Part shown: in pieces, positions 6,169-37,390 of the stretch
Layout of the letters: the number at the start of each line of letters is the position of its first letter
How positions within the stretch are numbered: the first letter of the stretch is position 1
DNA from: Mycoplasmataceae bacterium
GTDB taxonomy: Bacteria > Bacillota_I > Bacilli_A > Mycoplasmatales > Mycoplasmoidaceae
Length of the DNA stretch: 64,000 bases
Assembly (NCBI GenBank): GCA_031290395.1
Contig: JAITNN010000007.1
Location: 1 to 64,000 of the forward strand
Direction of reading: 5' to 3'
Translations under genes and position numbers: made by a program
The notes under the pieces: model-generated
Seen by the model: only the letters and a program-made list of their open reading frames with translations
Told to the model about the DNA's origin: nothing
Databases searched by the model: none

Positions 6169-7235
6169 TATTTTTGATTCCTTTCAACAACCGAAGTATA
6201 ACCAATTGTAGATACCACTAGTGTTGGTAATGCAATTCCCAAATTAATGACACCGATGGTTGTATACATAATGTTTTCTTTATCAAAGTTGGCCCACATG
6301 TTATAAACCGATGTAGATATCAAGAAGATAGCAATTATTAAAAAATTAATTAAATAAATTACAAACTCTTTCCGAGGAAACATTAGAACTTTCCCTTTTG
6401 ACTCTTGACGAATCCTGAAACCAAAATAAAAAATACAGAAAAAGAAATTAGAAATAATGAGAAGTAATGCTAAATAAAATAAAATACAGGAAAAAATGTA
6501 TTCATTCATAAATTCAGGGTCTTTAAATAATTCAACTATTAGTCCACCTAGAGTAAAAACTAAATTATCTGGTTCTCCTCAGATTGAAAAAATTAAACTT
6601 ACAGAAATTAATATTAAAAGAATAGTTAATAAACGAAATTGAAATCTATGCTTATCTTTATTATTACCATATAAACTATATTTAGTGCCAACATGGACAT
6701 TCCATGCATTATCAATAAAACACATTACATTTAAAACTAACATCGGTAAAATAGCAATTGTGTCTATTAACGGTGTACCATACATAAATAGTGGATTGAA
6801 AGTGTTAGTATCAGCATCGATTATTTGTCAATCGTATCCTAAAAATCCAACATAAGATACAATCAGAATAGCAAGGGTAAAGACTAAAAAATCAACCAGT
6901 ATAAATACCTCAAATTTAGACAATCTTACCATCTTACTCTTGCGCACAAAATGGATATGCATTAGAAGATAAACAAATAATAGCAAGCAAGTAGAAAATA
7001 AAAAAATAGCTATAAATAACGCATATATATACATGGTAGCATACCCAAAACCATCAGCACTTTTAAATACGGAATGGAAAATTGTATTATAAAGTGAATC
7101 AATGGATATAAAAGTTGCGAATAATATTGCGTTAGCAATTATTAGTGAAAATCTAACATAAGTAAAAAAACGAAATGCATGTCGGTTTCCCTTACTTGTA
7201 TTTTTTATTCATGTTTTATTTTGTTGTACCATCAT
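6168..7235 (-). CDS. Polytopic membrane protein of unknown function
   Basis: 355 residues assembled across two in-frame TGA-Trp codons at roughly residues 137 and 219, plus one near the N-terminus (KTWIKN). About eight to ten hydrophobic segments are separated by short basic loops, with no substrate-binding or catalytic motif that I recognise. Two adjacent ATG codons (7235 and 7232) overlap the stop of the dCMP deaminase gene as TAATGATG, so translation is probably coupled. The gene downstream is also a multi-TM protein and the two could form a pair. Confidence 0.65.
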
Positions 7236-11723: not shown

Positions 11724-11785
11724 ATTAAAGTAAAGTAATTATAGAACGATTTTATGTGTCTTATAATTTCTACAACGAGGTGTCT

Positions 11786-12445
11786 ATGCCAAGTCAAGTT
11801 TTATCTATATTAGTCCAAGTATTTATGTGGGTAGCCGTGGTGCTAACTTTTATTTTGTTAATCCCAGGAGTGTGAGTTGTTTTTAAAACACGTAACACTA
11901 CTGGTATTTCCAAATGAATGTATGCTTTATATCCATTATGTAGTGTTATGTGGATTACTTATGCCATTTTATTAATTTATGTGGATACACCAATTTGAGA
12001 AGTGGTCGGAATTGCTGTGGCTGAAGGTATAAGTATGATTTTAGCTCTCTATATTTTAGTTATTAAATTAAGCAATTTATCCCAAGCCAAACAACAACAC
12101 ATGAGCGAATCTGAATGATACCGAGCTTATGTGAAACAGAAGAAAGAAAAGCAACAACTAAAAGCTCTCGGTATTAATTCAGATTTAGATCTTAAGAATA
12201 GTCATGAACATCAAGTAAGTTTATCTAAGATATTGGATGAACTATCCGTGGAACACCCCAATATCGTAGATGATCGTATTACTTCGTCTAAACAATATCG
12301 TAAAACTGCTAATAAAACTATTACCTCTCCCGTTAAACGCTTAGAGCATTTTAAAAATGTGGCCACTAATGCCGAAATGGCAAATACGATTCATCTTATT
12401 TATCTTGATATGTATCAAGGTAAAAAGAGTCATATTGTCCAATAA
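11786..12445 (+). CDS. PQ-loop/SemiSWEET-like membrane protein
   Basis: 219 residues. The first ~105 form three hydrophobic helices with LLIPGVWVVFKTRNTTGISKW in the first loop, which matches the PQ-loop repeat (P-x-x...K-T/N-x-x-G-I-S) of SemiSWEET sugar or amino-acid carriers; the Gln of the PQ pair is replaced here. A long basic, helical cytoplasmic tail of ~110 residues follows and is unusual for the family. Three TGA codons encode Trp in the membrane part. An AGG ribosome site precedes ATG 11786. Two other PQ-loop genes lie in the pst operon. Confidence 0.75.
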
Positions 12446-29443: not shown

Positions 29444-30457
29444 TTATATTAATCTCACTTGTTCTTTGCCTTTGGCAACATAACCTATTTCATAGGCTTT
29501 TTCACCATTTGATTTTAAGATGGCAAGAGTTTTCTTAACATCTTTTTTAGCAATACAAATAATGAATCCAATACCCATATTAAAAGTGTTGTACATATGG
29601 TTTAAGTCAACACCACGTTCATTAATTAATTTAAATATTTTTGGTAATGGATAACTATTTTTATTAATAACTATTTGTAATCCATCTTTAGCAAACATAC
29701 GTGGTGAATTTTCAATAAAACCACCGCCCGTAATATGAGACATCCCTTTTACTTTAACTTGTTTCATTAAATTCAAAACTGGCTTAACATAAATCTTTGT
29801 AGGTGTTAATAATGTTTTTCAGATTGGCTGTCCATCAAATTTTTCATCTAAATTAGTAAATACTTTACGAATTAAGGAAAAACCATTAGAGTGGCATCCG
29901 CTAGAAGTTATACCAACTAATGCGTCACCAACTTTAATGGTTTTGCCATCAATGATCTTATTTCGTTCAGCGACGCCAACGGAAAAACCAGCAAGATCAT
30001 AATCTCCTACTTTGTAGAATCCAGGCATTTCTGCAGTTTCCCCACCTAATAATGCGCTATATGATTGTTTGCAACCATTAGCCACACCTTTAACTAAGTC
30101 TGCTGCCACATGTGCATCTAATTTACCACAAGCAATATAGTCTAAAAAGAATAATGGTTGGGCTCCGTGACATAATACATCATTCACACACATCGCCACA
30201 CAATCAATACCAACTGTATCGTATTTTCTTTTAGCACAAGCAATTGCAATTTTAGTACCGACACCATCAGTTCCAGAAATTAATACTGGATCTTTTAATC
30301 CTTTCGGTAATTTAAACATACCAGCAAAAGAACCTAAGCCATTTAGTACGCTTGGACTATATGTTTCTTTTGCTAGTTTCTTAATGATTTGTACTTCTTT
30401 GTAGCCTTCGTGAATATTCACACCGCTATCTTGATATGTTAATGATTTCTTAGTCAT
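29444..30457 (-). CDS. purM: Phosphoribosylformylglycinamidine cyclo-ligase (AIRS)
   Basis: 337 residues. Step 5 of purine synthesis, FGAM to AIR with ATP. Motifs: SLTYQDSGVNIHEG, LISGTDGVGTKIAIA, GIDCVAMCVNDVLCHGAQPLFFLDYIA, LLGGETAEMPGFY, SGCHSNGFSLIRK and SHITGGGFIENSPRM. One TGA-Trp lies at QPIWKTLL. Length is normal and ligand residues look intact. It is the first gene of purM-SHOCT-purN and follows phoU of the pst operon by 26 bases in the opposite order. Confidence 0.96.
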
Positions 30458-30483: not shown

Positions 30484-31167
30484 TTACTTATTTACTTGTT
30501 TACTTTGTTTAGTAAAGAATAGATCTGGTTGCTTAATAAACATAAAGTTTTCAGCAATATTTACAACATGATCCATTAGTCTTTCAATATGTTTAATAAT
30601 GATGATGGCACCACGAAATAATGACTCAATTTGTTCCACGGTACTTTTTTTAAGAATGGTTGATAAAGCATCTAACATTGTGTCGTATTGTTTACGGAAG
30701 TGTGTATAAACAGTCTGACATGTTTTGTAAGTGTCAATGGCTGCTTTGGTTTTCAATGATTGGTTAACTTTAGCATTGGCACTTAATGCATCATGCATAA
30801 TGTTCACGATTAATATTCTAATATCATCTGGAATTTTATTATTCACAAAGAAACGCATGGCACTAACTGCATAATCAGACATTCTTTCTAAATCTTTTGA
30901 TGAGTTAATAATCGCAATTAAATAACGTAAGTGATTAGCCAATGGTTCATTCTTAGAGATAGACCAAATACAATCATCTTGAATTTGGGCTTCAGAATGA
31001 TTAGAGATATCTTCCATTGAATAAACATATTCCAATTCCTTTTGGGTAGTATGTTTAGTTTTTAATGATTTATGAACAAACAATCAAATGTTGTACACAT
31101 GTTCACAATACTTAAGAAACTCAGCTTGCAATTCCCTTTCGGATTGTTTCATCATTTCGTAATTCAT
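30484..31167 (-). CDS. phoU: Phosphate-uptake regulator PhoU-like protein
   Basis: 227 residues, all helical. PhoU proteins damp the Pst phosphate importer and bind metals. Two helical repeats are visible, each with a conserved D/E-x-x-x-D segment (SKDLERMSDYAVSAM and IKHIERLMDHVVNIAENFMF). One TGA-Trp (VYNIWLFVHK) links the N-terminus. The start overlaps the stop of the preceding PQ-loop gene (TAATG). It ends the pst operon, its usual place. Confidence 0.9.
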
Positions 31168-31532
31168 TATTTAGTCTCCTCAGACTTTTTGTAGTGAGTT
31201 TCTCAGTATTTTAATTCCGTCATGTGTTCTTTTCTCGCGAGGCTCATATTTTTAAACTTAATTACTAAAGTGATTACAGCAATCGCTACACAAAAAGCGT
31301 TAGAAATTAATACTGGTAGCCCGAATGCTAAATGTGCATCAACTGTTGTATCTAAAACAGTGCCTATTCCATAAATCATAAACATGATGCATGCAAATGT
31401 AAAAATTAAATACATTCATAAATTAATGCCAGCTGTATTCTTAGTTTTTAAAACATTAATAAGATTTGGTAATGAAAATATACCGATGAAAACGGCACCA
31501 ACAATCATTACAACAATAATTACAGTTTCCAT
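31167..31532 (-). CDS. PQ-loop/SemiSWEET-like protein in pst operon (A)
   Basis: 121 residues, three TM helices. The loop after TM1 reads FSLPNLINVLKTKNTAGINLWMY, the PQ-loop signature of SemiSWEET carriers with PN instead of PQ. A charged C-terminal tail follows. GGAGGAG lies before ATG 31532. It is translated between another PQ-loop gene and phoU. Three-helix proteins of this kind act as dimers; two different subunits here could form a heterodimer. Substrate unknown. Confidence 0.75.
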
Positions 31533-31534
31533 AG

Positions 31535-31942
31535 TTATTTCTCCTCCACAATTTCTACTTTTGGTTCAGCATGATTTGATAATTCGTATACTTTCCGTTT
31601 ATATTCATCACTCAAAGATTTTAGTTGTTTACAATAATGCAATTCAGTAACTTTCGCTTTCTTGGCTGCAAAATAATTTTTGAGTTTTCAAATAAAGATA
31701 ATTGATGAAATAGTTCCGCAAACACTTTGAGCAATAATTAGGGGTAAACCACTAGCCAAGCTCGTTGTGGCCGTTAAAATTCCACCCAATAAAAAACATA
31801 AACAACCAATTAAATAAATAATATACATTGGTATATTAATAAAAGCCGTGTTCTTAGTTTTAACAATATTCACTAATTGTGGAACTGTGAATACTGCAAT
31901 TGCCGCTGACGCAATGAGTCCTATATAAAAATATCAATCCAT
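31535..31942 (-). CDS. PQ-loop/SemiSWEET-like protein in pst operon (B)
   Basis: 135 residues, three TM helices, with the canonical PQ pair in AVFTVPQLVNIVKTKNTAFIN. The second segment is YIIYLIGCLCFLLGGI. A ~50-residue charged tail ends EPKVEIVEEK. One TGA-Trp after SSIIFI and one in MDWYFYI. ATG 31942 is three bases after the pstB stop, and the gene ends two bases before gene A, so both depend on the pst transcript. Paralogue of gene A; the two are not identical. Confidence 0.78.
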
Positions 31943-31945
31943 AAA

Positions 31946-32926
31946 TTAACCTATCTTTCCTGAGATGTATTCTCTTGTTTTCTTATTTTTTGGTGATGTA
32001 AACATTTGCTTTGTTGTCCCCATTTCAATGACATTGCCCTGGTAAAAGAAAGCAGTTTCATCACTAACTCGCTGGGCTTGTGCCATTGAGTGTGTAACTA
32101 TTATGATGGTAAAATGTTGTTTTAGTTGATTGATTAACACTTCAATTTTACTAGTTGCAATGGGATCAAGCCCACTAGTTGGCTCATCCATAAGTAAAGT
32201 TTCAGGTTTTAATGCAATCGCTCTAGCAATACAAAGTCGTTGTTGTTGACCGCCTGAAAGTGATGTACCTAAATCAAATAAATTATGTCTTACCTCGTCT
32301 CATAATGCAGCACCCTTTAACGATTCTTCTACAAGATGATCTAAGGTTTTTTTATCATTAATTCCATGAGAGCGTGGTCCGTAGGCTACATTTTCATAAA
32401 TGCTCATAGGGAATGGAGATGGTTTTTGAAAAATCATACCAACTCGAGTTGTGAGTTCAAGGGTGTTTAATTTTTTACTTTTTAAATTGATACCCTTATC
32501 AAAATAAATATTACCTTCACTAGAGGTATTCTCAATTTGATCATTCATACGATTTAAACAACGGATAAATGTAGATTTACCACAGCCTGATGGTCCAATT
32601 AAAGCCGTAACTTTATTACGCTTAATTTTCATCTCTACATCTTTAAGGGCTTGCTTACTACGGTTGTCATATCAAAAGTTAAAGTTCTCAACCTCAAATA
32701 TATTTTCACGATTGAAATTTTTCTTTAATGTATCAACATTCTCTTTGCTCTTTTTAGAAATAACTTTATATAGCTCTTTTTGTTTGTCAGTTAATTTAGA
32801 ATATTTCATCCAGCGAGTAAAAACACCACTAGCAAGAACAGCAGAAATTTTAGCAGCATCAGCTTGTTGCTGATCAATGCTTTCTGATGTTTCTTCTGTC
32901 TTTTTAATTTTAGATGTATCGCTCAT
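31946..32926 (-). CDS. pstB: Phosphate ABC transporter ATPase
   Basis: 326 residues. Powers phosphate import. Walker A is [11 protein letters not shown], the ABC signature [17 protein letters not shown], Walker [12 protein letters not shown], and the H-loop [10 protein letters not shown]; the phosphate-type RCLNRMND follows Walker A. A ~75-residue Lys/Glu-rich N-terminal extension precedes the domain, as in other mycoplasmal PstB proteins. TGA-Trp at ENFNFWYDN and AALWDEV. It lies 36 bases after pstCA. Confidence 0.95.
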
Positions 32927-32962: not shown

Positions 32963-35050
32963 TTATGTTACTACCCTTCGCCTTTTCTTTTTAACTTTGG
33001 GAGTACTTCTCACTTTCTTACGAATAGTTTTTCTCATTTGTCATTTAGTTTGATCATTTGGTACTAATAATGTGGCTACTGCTAACTCTGCCCTTTCAGC
33101 TCTAGCTTCTTCTGCTTTCAATTGACTGTAAGCAATACGTTGTTTGCGACGTTTATAGTTGTAGTATGCTGGAATCGCAACATGCACTACCAAGATAATG
33201 ATTAATACTAACAGCATAGTCACAAAGGCACACTCATACATAATGTTGGTGCCTTCAGTGACATTAGCCGTATAAATTTGAGCATAAATTCTAGTGGTCA
33301 ATGTTTGTCCTGGGTTGATTAATGAAATAGAACTTGACGAAGATAATCCACTCGTTAAATATAATGGTGCTGTTTCTGCCAAAATACGACCAATCGAAAG
33401 AATTACCGCAGTAGTGATACCCTGTCTAGCAGCTGGTAAAACAATCTTTCTAATGGTTTCTCACTTACCAGCACCAAGTGCATATGAATTCGTGCGTAAA
33501 TCTTTGGGGATTGATTGTAATGCCTGTTGAATAGTTCTAATAAAGACTGGTAGGATAACAATCAATATTGTCATCGCTCCAGCAATAATTGATTTACCTG
33601 CTGTCCCGCCTGCTGACATACCACAAGTTTGTAGAAAGAATATCAAACCAAACATACCAAATAAGATTGACGGTGTTGCACCCAATGAGTCAATAAAGAA
33701 TAATAATAGTTTTTTTAATTTACCTTCTTTAGCAAACTCATTTAAGTAAATGGCAATCATCAAAGACAATGGTAATCCAATACCAATGGCAATAATAATA
33801 ATTAACACTGTATTCATAAATGCTTGCCCAGTGGAATTATCCGTAAATGAGAATACCGTGGCATCCCCAGATGCTAAAGCAACACCGCCAAAGCCAATAA
33901 TATCTACCAGAATTCATGCTAGGAATCCAATGGTGATCACAACAGACACGATTTCTCAAAAAAACTTATAGATAGTATAAGCATGTACAAATTTATTTGT
34001 TTGTACACGCTTTGCTAAATAATCCGATAAGTTTTTATCTCTATCAACCTTGGAGTGGTAAGTTAATTTTTCTCAACCAATTTTAATTTGTGTCGGTAAA
34101 AATAAAACAAATGATGCTATGGCCTTTTCCGCTTTGTTCCATCATTGTCATTTGCTTTTGCTCTTTTTCTTAGTCGCATACATAGCAACACCATTAAGAA
34201 TCATGACAAAGATAAACATAAATAAACCAAAAGCAAATAGCAATGATTGTAACGCTGGCCCACCACCCTCAGCAAACATATTAGCAGCGATTAATGCACC
34301 GAGTGATCTTAAACCACTTGTCGCTGTGGCTCAAAATCCTTGATCAAAGATAGGATTATACCCTTGTGATTGAAGGATCATAGACACCGCCATTGTTTCA
34401 CCAATCGCTCGAGCCAAAGCGATAATCACACCCACCATGATACCATTACGTGCATCTTTCTTACACACCTTATAAATGGATCTAGTCTTTGTGTTACCCA
34501 ATACCATAGATGCGCTGATTAATGTTGAATCTACCCCATCTAATGCATTTAAAGACAAGGACACAATCGTTGGCAAAACCATAAACGTCAACATAAACCC
34601 TGTTGTAATTAAGTTATAAGATGTCGACATGTGAAAGATTGTTTTTAAGACAATACCCAACATCTCTGAAGCAAATAAACCAAAAATTACTGATGGGATA
34701 TCTGCTAATAATTCAATTGCAATTCGCACACCCTTTTGATATTTAACTGGTAAACGATATTTGATAAACATCGCTGTTTTAATCCCAACAGGTCCTGCAA
34801 TTACAATCGCCAATAGTGAAACCATAATCGTAATACATAGTGGTAATCAAACAGATGCTTTATCGTCAGCCAAATCAAATGTACCACCAAAAATACTTCA
34901 ACCGTACGCTCTAAACCCCGGAATAGAAGCATAAACAATAAAAATTATTAATAAAAGGAAGACTAATGAAAATAGTCAGCTCAAAGACATCGAAACAATT
35001 TTCGATGTCTTATCAGCACTTTGTTTCTTTTGTAATAAACCAGTGGCCAT
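32963..35050 (-). CDS. pstA: Fused PstC-PstA phosphate permease
   Basis: 695 residues in one frame across several TGA-Trp codons. The N-terminal half is PstC-like (AIELLADIPSVIFGLFASEML and GVIIALARAIGETMAVSMILQSQ). The C-terminal half is PstA-like ([64 protein letters not shown]). Each half carries an EAA-type loop that docks PstB. A fused permease is known in mycoplasmas. The C-terminal tail is very basic (RKKVRSTPKVKKKRRR). The ATG overlaps the pstS stop. Confidence 0.93.
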
Positions 35051-36351
35051 TAGCTTATTCCTTTAGGAATAGGAGCAAAGTTCCATAGTTCAGGTTCAGG
35101 TCACTCCTCTGGTGTGGATCATAGTGAATCATGCATTGGGCCACTTATTGTTGTACTTAAAGCATAATCTGAGTACCACTCACCCAATTCCGCAAGTGAC
35201 GTCATACTAGGAAACATTTCTTTCAATTCGTTTTTGTTATCGGGGCCAGTATTTGTTAGTGCTTTGCATCCAATTTGTTCTAATAATGTTGGGTTTGTTA
35301 ATAAATATTTAATAAAAGCAATTTCCGGAGAATCTTGATTGTCAACTGAAATCAAAGTATTTAATGGCCGAAATCAATTGTACCCGCTTGCTGAATCTAT
35401 TTGCCTTATATCATACGGAGTTTCTTTGTAAGACATAAGTCCATAGCCTTTATTATTTAACAATGATTGATTTTGGGCAATAAACCCTGATGATAAATAA
35501 ACAATTTGCCCAGGAATATTGGACTTAGTGAACATATCCCAAGCACGACTATTGGCCTCATCAGTTTGTTGAATGCCAAAAGAAACTCCATATTCCCCAC
35601 TATCGAAAGCACTTTTTTGAGCAGTGCTTAGTAGATCATAAGGATTTATAGGTTGTTCAGGTGTTCCGACATTAAGATGTGTGCCATTCACAAAAGACGC
35701 AGCTGTTCCTGATGTCAATGAACCACCGGCTCTAACATAAGGAATGATAGAAGTATCTTTTAATAATTGTTCGTCATTTCCAGGCCATTGGCCATCCAAT
35801 GATGTATTTCGGAAATGTCACATGCTGTTATTAGAAATATTGCTATCGGAGTCTCAACTAATACCTTCATTAATTCCAGAGAAAACTCTCATAAAATTAA
35901 CGATATTAGATTCATCAATCGATAATATATTGTTGATATTTACAGCTCCATTAAAATTAAAACCTTTGGGTGGAATATAAACTAGACAAATTGCTTCTCA
36001 ACCAATGGTAATGGTTTTGATGTTATTATCTATTCATTGTTCTCTAAAACCATCTTTCCCAGCTGGTTGTACAGCACTATAAGGGTCTGTAGAAGCATTA
36101 CCAATGTTGGCATATCCTTCAGCAATTTGTTGAATACCAAAACCACTACCACCAGCTTCAACTGTGATGTCTACATTTTTGTTAGATTTCATGTAATCTT
36201 TGGATAACTCTTCAACGAATGGTTTAACACCACTTGACCCAACACAAGATATTGGTGCCTTATTTGACCAACTATTAGAAAAACCAATTACAAGCCCTAC
36301 AGGTATTAAACATAGGGAAGCGGTTAGGGTATTTTTAACTCAACGTTTCAT
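35050..36351 (-). CDS. pstS: Phosphate-binding protein PstS
   Basis: 433 residues. The N-terminal signal segment (TLTASLCLIPVGLVIGF) is followed by APISCVGSSGVKPFVEEL; the Cys may be lipid-modified although the lipobox is not classical, and S-S-G-V begins the phosphate site. EAGGSGFGIQQIAEGYANIGNASTDP and GWEAICLVY are typical PstS stretches, with several TGA-Trp codons. First gene of the operon; the ATG is 36351, 170 bases from the divergent HTH gene. Catches phosphate outside the membrane for PstCA. Confidence 0.9.
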
Positions 36352-36520: not shown

Positions 36521-37390
36521 ATGAGAGAGAGAATACAGAATTATAAAGGGAGAGCCATGGTTCACCAATTAACTATCGGTAAAAGAATCACAGTCCTCCG
36601 CAAACAGCTAAATATTACACAAAAAGATTTAGGAGCAATGTTTGGTGTAACACCACAATCCATTAGCAAATGAGAAAATGGATCATCATTACCTAATATA
36701 GTAACATTATCTGTGCTATGCAAAATATTTTTTACAGACTTAAATACTTTAATTAGTGATGATTTTATTCATCTTAATGAGAAAAGTAAACCTATTACTC
36801 ATTATCCATTACGAAAACTAGAGAACACTAATGTACATAATTTAACTCAATTTACATCTAATAAATTGCTATATAGAGTTGATATAAATAATTTGCAAGC
36901 TAATGAAGCACCACTCATAGATTGTACTTTTAGTGAATGCGCATTCCGTAACCTTTCACATCAAAAAAACCAATCTAGAAATATTCGTTTTATAAACTGC
37001 CGTTTTGAAAGCACCGTTGATTGTAGCAATAGCATTGCCGACAATCAATACTTACGAAATAATTTTATTGCTGGGAATTATGAGAATTGTAACTTTGCTC
37101 ACACAAGTTATGATCATGAAACAATAAATGGCGCTAATTTTAAAGGTATTCACTTCACATCTAGCACATGCACAGATTCATATTTCGAAAAAGTAAATTT
37201 AACATCGGCAGTGTTCAAAGACCACATTTTCTATCGTACCACAATGAAGAATTGTAATTTGACTAACATTACATTCCAAGACTGTCAATTCTATGAAACA
37301 ACGTTTGAGAATTGTACTTTTGACAAAAAAACATTTAATTTTCTAGCAACTAACGGTTATGCAAAAATACTTAGTCCTAAGATAGTTTAA
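36521..37390 (+). CDS. XRE-type HTH regulator fused to pentapeptide-like repeats
   Basis: 289 residues. Residues ~18-75 form a Cro/C1 HTH (IGKRITVLRKQLNITQKDLGAMF, then VTPQSISKWENGSSLPNIVTLSVL, Trp by TGA). After a linker, residues ~120-285 show irregular five-residue repeats rich in Cys, Asn, Phe (CTFSECAFRNL, NCNFAHTSY, GANFKGIHF, NCNLTNITFQDCQF), a right-handed pentapeptide helix. AGAGGAG lies well placed before ATG 36521. It diverges from pstS and may regulate that operon; a pentapeptide helix could be a ligand or protein-binding part. Fusion is uncommon. Confidence 0.85.

Follow-up and report, generated by a model that had tools for sequence, protein, structure and literature searches.

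The window, by which we mean the whole 64,000-nucleotide stretch of DNA analysed here, comes from a Mollicute assembly of 1.01 Mb (21 contigs, 91.6% complete) and carries a full Pst-PhoU unit, with pstS, pstC, pstA, pstB and phoU together, deep within a 147-kb contig. Genes were called under code 4, in which TGA specifies tryptophan; this code is required because code 11 reads TGA as a stop and makes the genes appear broken. In the pst region, where all coordinates refer to the minus strand, the gene order is pstS, a fused pstC-pstA, pstB, PQ1, PQ2, phoU and purM. The pstS-like gene (35050..36351) specifies a phosphate-binding protein of 433 aa, identified with Pfam and NCBIfam profiles, which exceeds the Pfam PBP_like_2 cut-off and has a weak NCBIfam match (57 bits). 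Next come the permease gene (32963..35050, 695 aa; PstC half at 14-295, PstA half at 363-623) and pstB (31946..32926; TIGR00972, 383.7 bits), with PstC, PstA and PstB all above their NCBIfam cut-offs. PhoU, encoded at 30484..31167, scores 104.1 bits versus an NCBIfam cut-off of 130.25 and exceeds the Pfam PhoU cut-off. purM (29444..30457, named from its translation) lies 26 nt downstream of phoU and also follows it in relatives; it is probably cotranscribed with phoU and falls outside the phosphate system. Divergent from pstS, an XRE-type helix-turn-helix protein whose C-terminal part resembles pentapeptide repeats is encoded at window positions 36521-37390 (+) and is a candidate regulator.

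Between pstB and phoU lie two different genes for three-transmembrane (TM) proteins of the PQ-loop/SemiSWEET fold, PQ1 (31535..31942, 135 aa) and PQ2 (31167..31532, 121 aa). Spacing is tight: 3 nt between pstB and PQ1, 2 nt between PQ1 and PQ2, and a 1-nt overlap of the PQ2 stop and phoU start codons (TAATG). The earlier note had described two distinct three-helix genes with such junctions at this site, and its coordinates proved exact. The canonical pstSCAB-phoU operon is thus matched in that every component is present and phoU comes last, but here PstC and PstA are fused, two PQ genes are inserted and no response regulator was found in the genome. Since this assembly yielded no response regulator, the likeliest route for PhoU is direct action on the transporter, not signalling through PhoB. 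The dN/dS ratios of the PQ genes (0.11-0.27, versus 0.06-0.19 for phoU and pstB; dS is close to saturation) indicate purifying selection; both genes are also conserved and intact under code 4, and on these grounds broken genes or chance open reading frames were rejected. Separate transcription of the PQ genes was likewise rejected. Promoter-like sites numbered 36, against 36.2 in shuffled sequence, and of the terminator-like sites (6 found versus 3.7 expected) a single weak one falls inside PQ2, within chance.

Profile searches give both proteins modest SemiSWEET scores. PQ1 passes the Pfam PQ-loop cut-off of 22 bits (24.8 bits) and PQ2 falls below it (17.9 bits); both match SemiSWEET_2 near 1e-8 (PQ2 at 6.7e-9), each with about 35 bits, below the NCBIfam cut-off of 80. 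A profile built from 28 relatives, including PQ1 and PQ2, matches solved SemiSWEETs at 8e-10. AlphaFold2 models (pLDDT 82 for PQ1 and 80 for PQ2) have three long helices, to which PQ1 adds a cytoplasmic C-terminal helix. The top PDB matches of both models are all SemiSWEETs, with target TM scores of 0.76-0.85 for the best chains and a probability of 1.00; owing to the small size of the proteins, the Foldseek E-values are no better than 0.01; subunits of the mitochondrial pyruvate carrier (MPC) appear behind them as weak matches to the PQ1 model. In the Pro-Gln hinge the proline is invariant among the 28 sequences, and the second residue is Gln in 8/9 PQ1 proteins and Asn in 8/9 PQ2 proteins; in the window, PN replaces PQ in PQ2. 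By these models, the two proteins adopt the SemiSWEET fold.

The insertion is conserved. Our search covered all 35 other species of the genus, with phoU present in 24 genus genomes; in 17 of these, one (8 genomes) or two (9 genomes) PQ genes stand directly upstream of phoU, in one case (G003) two PQ genes without pstB in front. The three genomes of the sister genus g24 that carry phoU all show the order pstB-PQ-phoU. The arrangement is thus conserved across two genera, beyond chance, and the earlier note's proposal to look for PQ genes beside pstB/phoU in other genomes was borne out by these 17/24 and 3/3 counts, which rule out a lack of conservation. The PQ2/phoU stop-start overlap is kept in most pair-bearing relatives. 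At least five genus genomes have phoU with no PQ gene alongside (G026, G027, G030, G033 and G035), G022 carries its PQ pair away from phoU, and the phoU of G034, drawn as 'none' on the IF2 and PstCA trees, lies near a contig end. Metagenome-assembled genomes (MAGs) in this set are 50-94% complete, and absences are weak evidence; the sample codes of the nearest relatives suggest an origin in insect-gut metagenomes. In Malacoplasma (g18), a related PQ gene sits away from phoU, near recR/ybaB or a radical-SAM gene, and in the two loci read nothing separates pstB from phoU. The Malacoplasma placement and the phoU genomes devoid of PQ indicate that neither gene needs the other. The slot before phoU can hold other genes: a protein of about 186 aa, apparently with four TM helices and unrelated to PQ, follows the PQ gene in G011 (L064:8222-8782, -; no Pfam match) and stands in place of PQ in G030 (L069 ~6628-7185, +). 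A PQ-like stretch with three in-frame stops (one TAG, two TAA) at G000:C18:120393-120746 (-) is possibly a decayed PQ gene.

Further afield, PQ-loop genes are common, occurring in 191/298 genomes of the order. No other PQ/phoU adjacency was seen among the listed coordinates of these 298 genomes, compared by eye, and within 1.5 kb of 29 non-window PQ loci from a phylum sample nothing matched PhoU, PstB or PstCA. On the entries listed, we discarded the insertion as a general Mollicute trait. The arrangement is likely absent elsewhere, and the earlier note's statement that pst operons normally carry no such genes agrees with the matches listed in both samples.

Phylogenies suggest a simple history. 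In the PstCA tree, g24 groups with the window genus (g1) at 100/100, and Malacoplasma and g25, both without the insertion, fall outside; an independent IF2 tree places the two-gene species on one side of a branch (78/71). In the PQ tree, pst-type proteins sit with the Malacoplasma proteins (81/89), and PQ1 and PQ2 form separate, old lineages. One displaced G022 gene falls within each of these two clades, which implies that the pair moved together. In a second PQ tree, built from other taxa, PQ1 and PQ2 are again apart, with a shifted relation to the rest and the second G022 gene no longer placed; these protein trees have 111-126 columns and weak deep forks, leaving the deep order unsettled. 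The fewest steps would be an insertion in the common ancestor of both genera, a single duplication within the window's subclade, and loss on several occasions. PQ genes of the pst clade are missing from the 12 genus genomes in which no phoU was found, mostly through a single loss event on the tree. On the IF2 tree, all genomes lacking pst fall into one group, and a formal test of PQ/phoU co-loss is therefore uninformative.

Broken operons in three genomes reveal which genes stay together. G003 keeps PQ1-PQ2-phoU apart from pstCA-pstB, and both G006 and G277 keep pstB-PQ(-PQ)-phoU apart from pstS/pstCA. The two PQ genes are adjacent in 10/10 genomes that have the pair, including G022, where both moved. 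The sample is small, the MAGs are fragmented and some break-ups may be assembly errors; within it, the linkage pattern speaks for a function common to PQ1 and PQ2 and, as PQ genes go with phoU more often than with the permease genes, for a PQ tie that may be closer to phoU, leaning towards PhoU. Judging from spacing and conservation, the PQ genes are part of the pst-phoU unit.

The pocket residues divide the pair. In EcSemiSWEET the pocket consists of Trp50 and Asn66; sucrose uptake falls with N66A and is unaffected by W50F (PMC4309421). By alignment, the LbSemiSWEET counterparts are W48 and N64, and Asn64 has been reported to bind glucose, according to a work cited in PMC5742349. The W48 site is Phe in 33/34 proteins of the operon-resident and Malacoplasma groups (Phe50 in the window's PQ1, and Phe in its PQ2 too). 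At the N64 site, all nine PQ1 proteins have Gln (Gln72 in the window) and Asn is found in 9/9 PQ2, 8/8 single-copy, 3/3 g24 and 5/5 Malacoplasma proteins. The PQ1 Gln is not universal, as both partners of the displaced G022 pair have Asn. The Trp + Asn pair of SemiSWEETs is hence incomplete here, with Trp replaced by Phe nearly throughout and Asn by Gln in PQ1 but retained in PQ2. Because EcSemiSWEET tolerates W50F, the change to Phe is compatible with sugar transport. Charged residues occur in at most 3 of the 28 aligned sequences at any TM1 or TM3 position, and the pocket Lys and His of MPC are absent from these columns.

Compared with LbSemiSWEET (4QNC/5UHS) and EcSemiSWEET (4X5M/4X5N), the PQ proteins share the three TM helices, the PQ/PN motif, the fold and, in PQ2 and all single-copy relatives, the pocket Asn. 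They differ in the pocket substitutions, in being encoded by two different genes instead of one, in the longer charged C-terminal helix and in the pst operon context, of which the available part of a published gene-context survey holds no example (PMC5972207). MPC1/MPC2, a heterodimer of three-TM protomers of the same fold (PMC12007569), offers a model for a split, asymmetric SemiSWEET, but its pocket Lys and His are lacking in PQ1/PQ2 and the structural matches are weak.

A second set of tandem PQ genes, family f4, bears on whether PQ1 and PQ2 pair. The f4 pairs (L090, L092, L202, L210, L211 and L213) are likewise adjacent and nonidentical. Phe occupies their Trp site, and at the Asn site the first gene of each pair encodes Gln (Glu in one case) and the second Asn. 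In G057 the pair is fused as a single 245-aa protein (L094:6509-7246, +) with halves in Gln-then-Asn order, which suggests, by analogy, that such a pair can act as two halves of one carrier. A shared origin of the f4 pair and PQ1/PQ2 was dismissed, as the tree lends it no support; the duplications are independent, and the listed phoU coordinates lie far from the f4 pairs. Other multiplied PQ genes in this set include family f7, whose loci encode PQ proteins of 244-275 aa that have two domains and unequal halves, and L080, L081, L082, L083 and L088, each with three different tandem PQ genes with Asn/Asp/Asn at the pocket site; most of the genus members with such three-gene clusters have no PQ gene in their pst operon.

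Among the indirect signs that PQ1 pairs with PQ2, the f4 fusion is the strongest; further support comes from a pair unsplit in 10 genomes, the old PQ1/PQ2 split and the complementary Gln/Asn pocket. We infer from these indirect but good supports that PQ1 and PQ2 form a heterodimer. The earlier note had suggested a heterodimeric carrier dependent on phosphate supply; the pairing part of this suggestion is strengthened by the lines just given, and it is more secure than the physiological role. Our best-supported model, in which our confidence is evenly balanced, is that PQ1 and PQ2 constitute a heterodimeric SemiSWEET-type carrier of an uncharged solute, coproduced with PstB and PhoU. An ancestral single pst-type PQ gene, presumably acting as a homodimer as we presume for the living one-copy relatives, would have entered the pstB/phoU site in the ancestor of both genera. 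Duplication in the window's subclade would then have been followed by specialization, with Gln in PQ1 and Asn in PQ2. The two three-TM protomers would share a transcript with PstB and PhoU and form one pore for a substrate that is probably uncharged and polyol-like, not phosphate itself, and coregulation would tie solute flux to the state of phosphate uptake. Speculatively, the carrier might relieve an imbalance between sugar phosphorylation and phosphate supply.

The main rival to the carrier model makes the PQ proteins a membrane partner dedicated to PhoU in a cell lacking PhoR/PhoB, either a dock that keeps PhoU at the membrane or a sensor reporting a solute to it; the state of the PQ dimer would then determine how PhoU gates PstB. 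The widely kept PQ2/phoU overlap, the retention of PQ with phoU after three separate break-ups and the missing response regulator, which makes action through PhoB improbable, all speak for it, as does a conserved cytoplasmic tail with K86 and E100 invariant across the 28 sequences. The tail motif, however, is common to PQ paralogues elsewhere in these genomes, and since these carry the C-terminal helix too, its role as a PhoU-specific dock is weakened; the displaced G022 pair, the five or more phoU genomes without an adjoining PQ gene and possible assembly errors behind the break-ups also count against a dedicated partner, which we regard as rather unlikely. A bolder version seems to us distinctly unlikely: in a bacterium lacking two-component systems, a SemiSWEET-fold transceptor dedicated to PhoU would replace the PhoR/PhoB branch and make the gating of phosphate import depend on a carbon solute that it passes or binds.

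The PQ genes might instead be ordinary operon passengers, common Mollicute carrier genes useful on their own that share the pst promoter with no tie to phosphate. Such a reading accommodates the abundance of PQ-loop genes in the order, tandem pairs at other loci, the different neighbours of the Malacoplasma gene, the unrelated membrane-protein gene in the same slot of G011 and G030 and a purM with no obvious relation after phoU. We consider it unlikely, as PQ has been kept at the exact site over two genera despite break-ups, tightly coupled to phoU, and the clade's genes are missing from the phoU-less genus genomes, even if mostly through one event. That the pair moves phosphate or a sugar phosphate, as a valve beside the Pst pump, has the operon context in its favour and is very improbable: the membrane core has no conserved basic residue, the pocket is Phe plus Asn/Gln and an anion carrier of the same fold, MPC, uses an essential pocket Lys and His (PMC12007569).

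The protein family, its fold and the operon are already known. In the open-licence literature, including the available part of PMC5972207, we found no report of a pst-embedded PQ pair, its Gln/Asn division or its conservation in two genera; searches there for PQ-loop proteins with pst or phoU, PQ-loop/SemiSWEET proteins in Mycoplasma and SemiSWEETs with phosphate-transport operons returned nothing relevant. PMC5972207 describes the physiological role of bacterial SemiSWEETs as unproven. A SemiSWEET-type pair kept beside phoU in two genera provides a concrete lead, pointing to a site, to a partner and to phosphate limitation as the condition for testing such a role. Inheritance of the arrangement across many species of these uncultured, wall-less bacteria suggests, at the level of gene order, that phosphate control may be linked to how another small molecule moves, and it bears on how PhoU acts where PhoR/PhoB are absent. 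Two independent Mollicute pairs, of which one has a fused form in a relative, converge on the Gln/Asn split, and this makes heterodimeric SemiSWEETs directly testable as small bacterial counterparts of MPC1/MPC2.

The window encodes a third PQ-loop protein, PQ3 (11756..12445, +; 229 aa), a paralogue outside the pst-type clade with a cytoplasmic tail of about 120 residues, in line with the long-tailed protein that the earlier note had placed at 11.8 kb. PQ3 retains the pocket Trp and has Glu at the pocket Asn site. Its counterpart in G006 adjoins a PstC-PstA-PstS triple-fusion gene (L167:4238-7549, +), whose 1103-aa product carries the phosphate-binding domain at residues 698-1056, after the permease halves.
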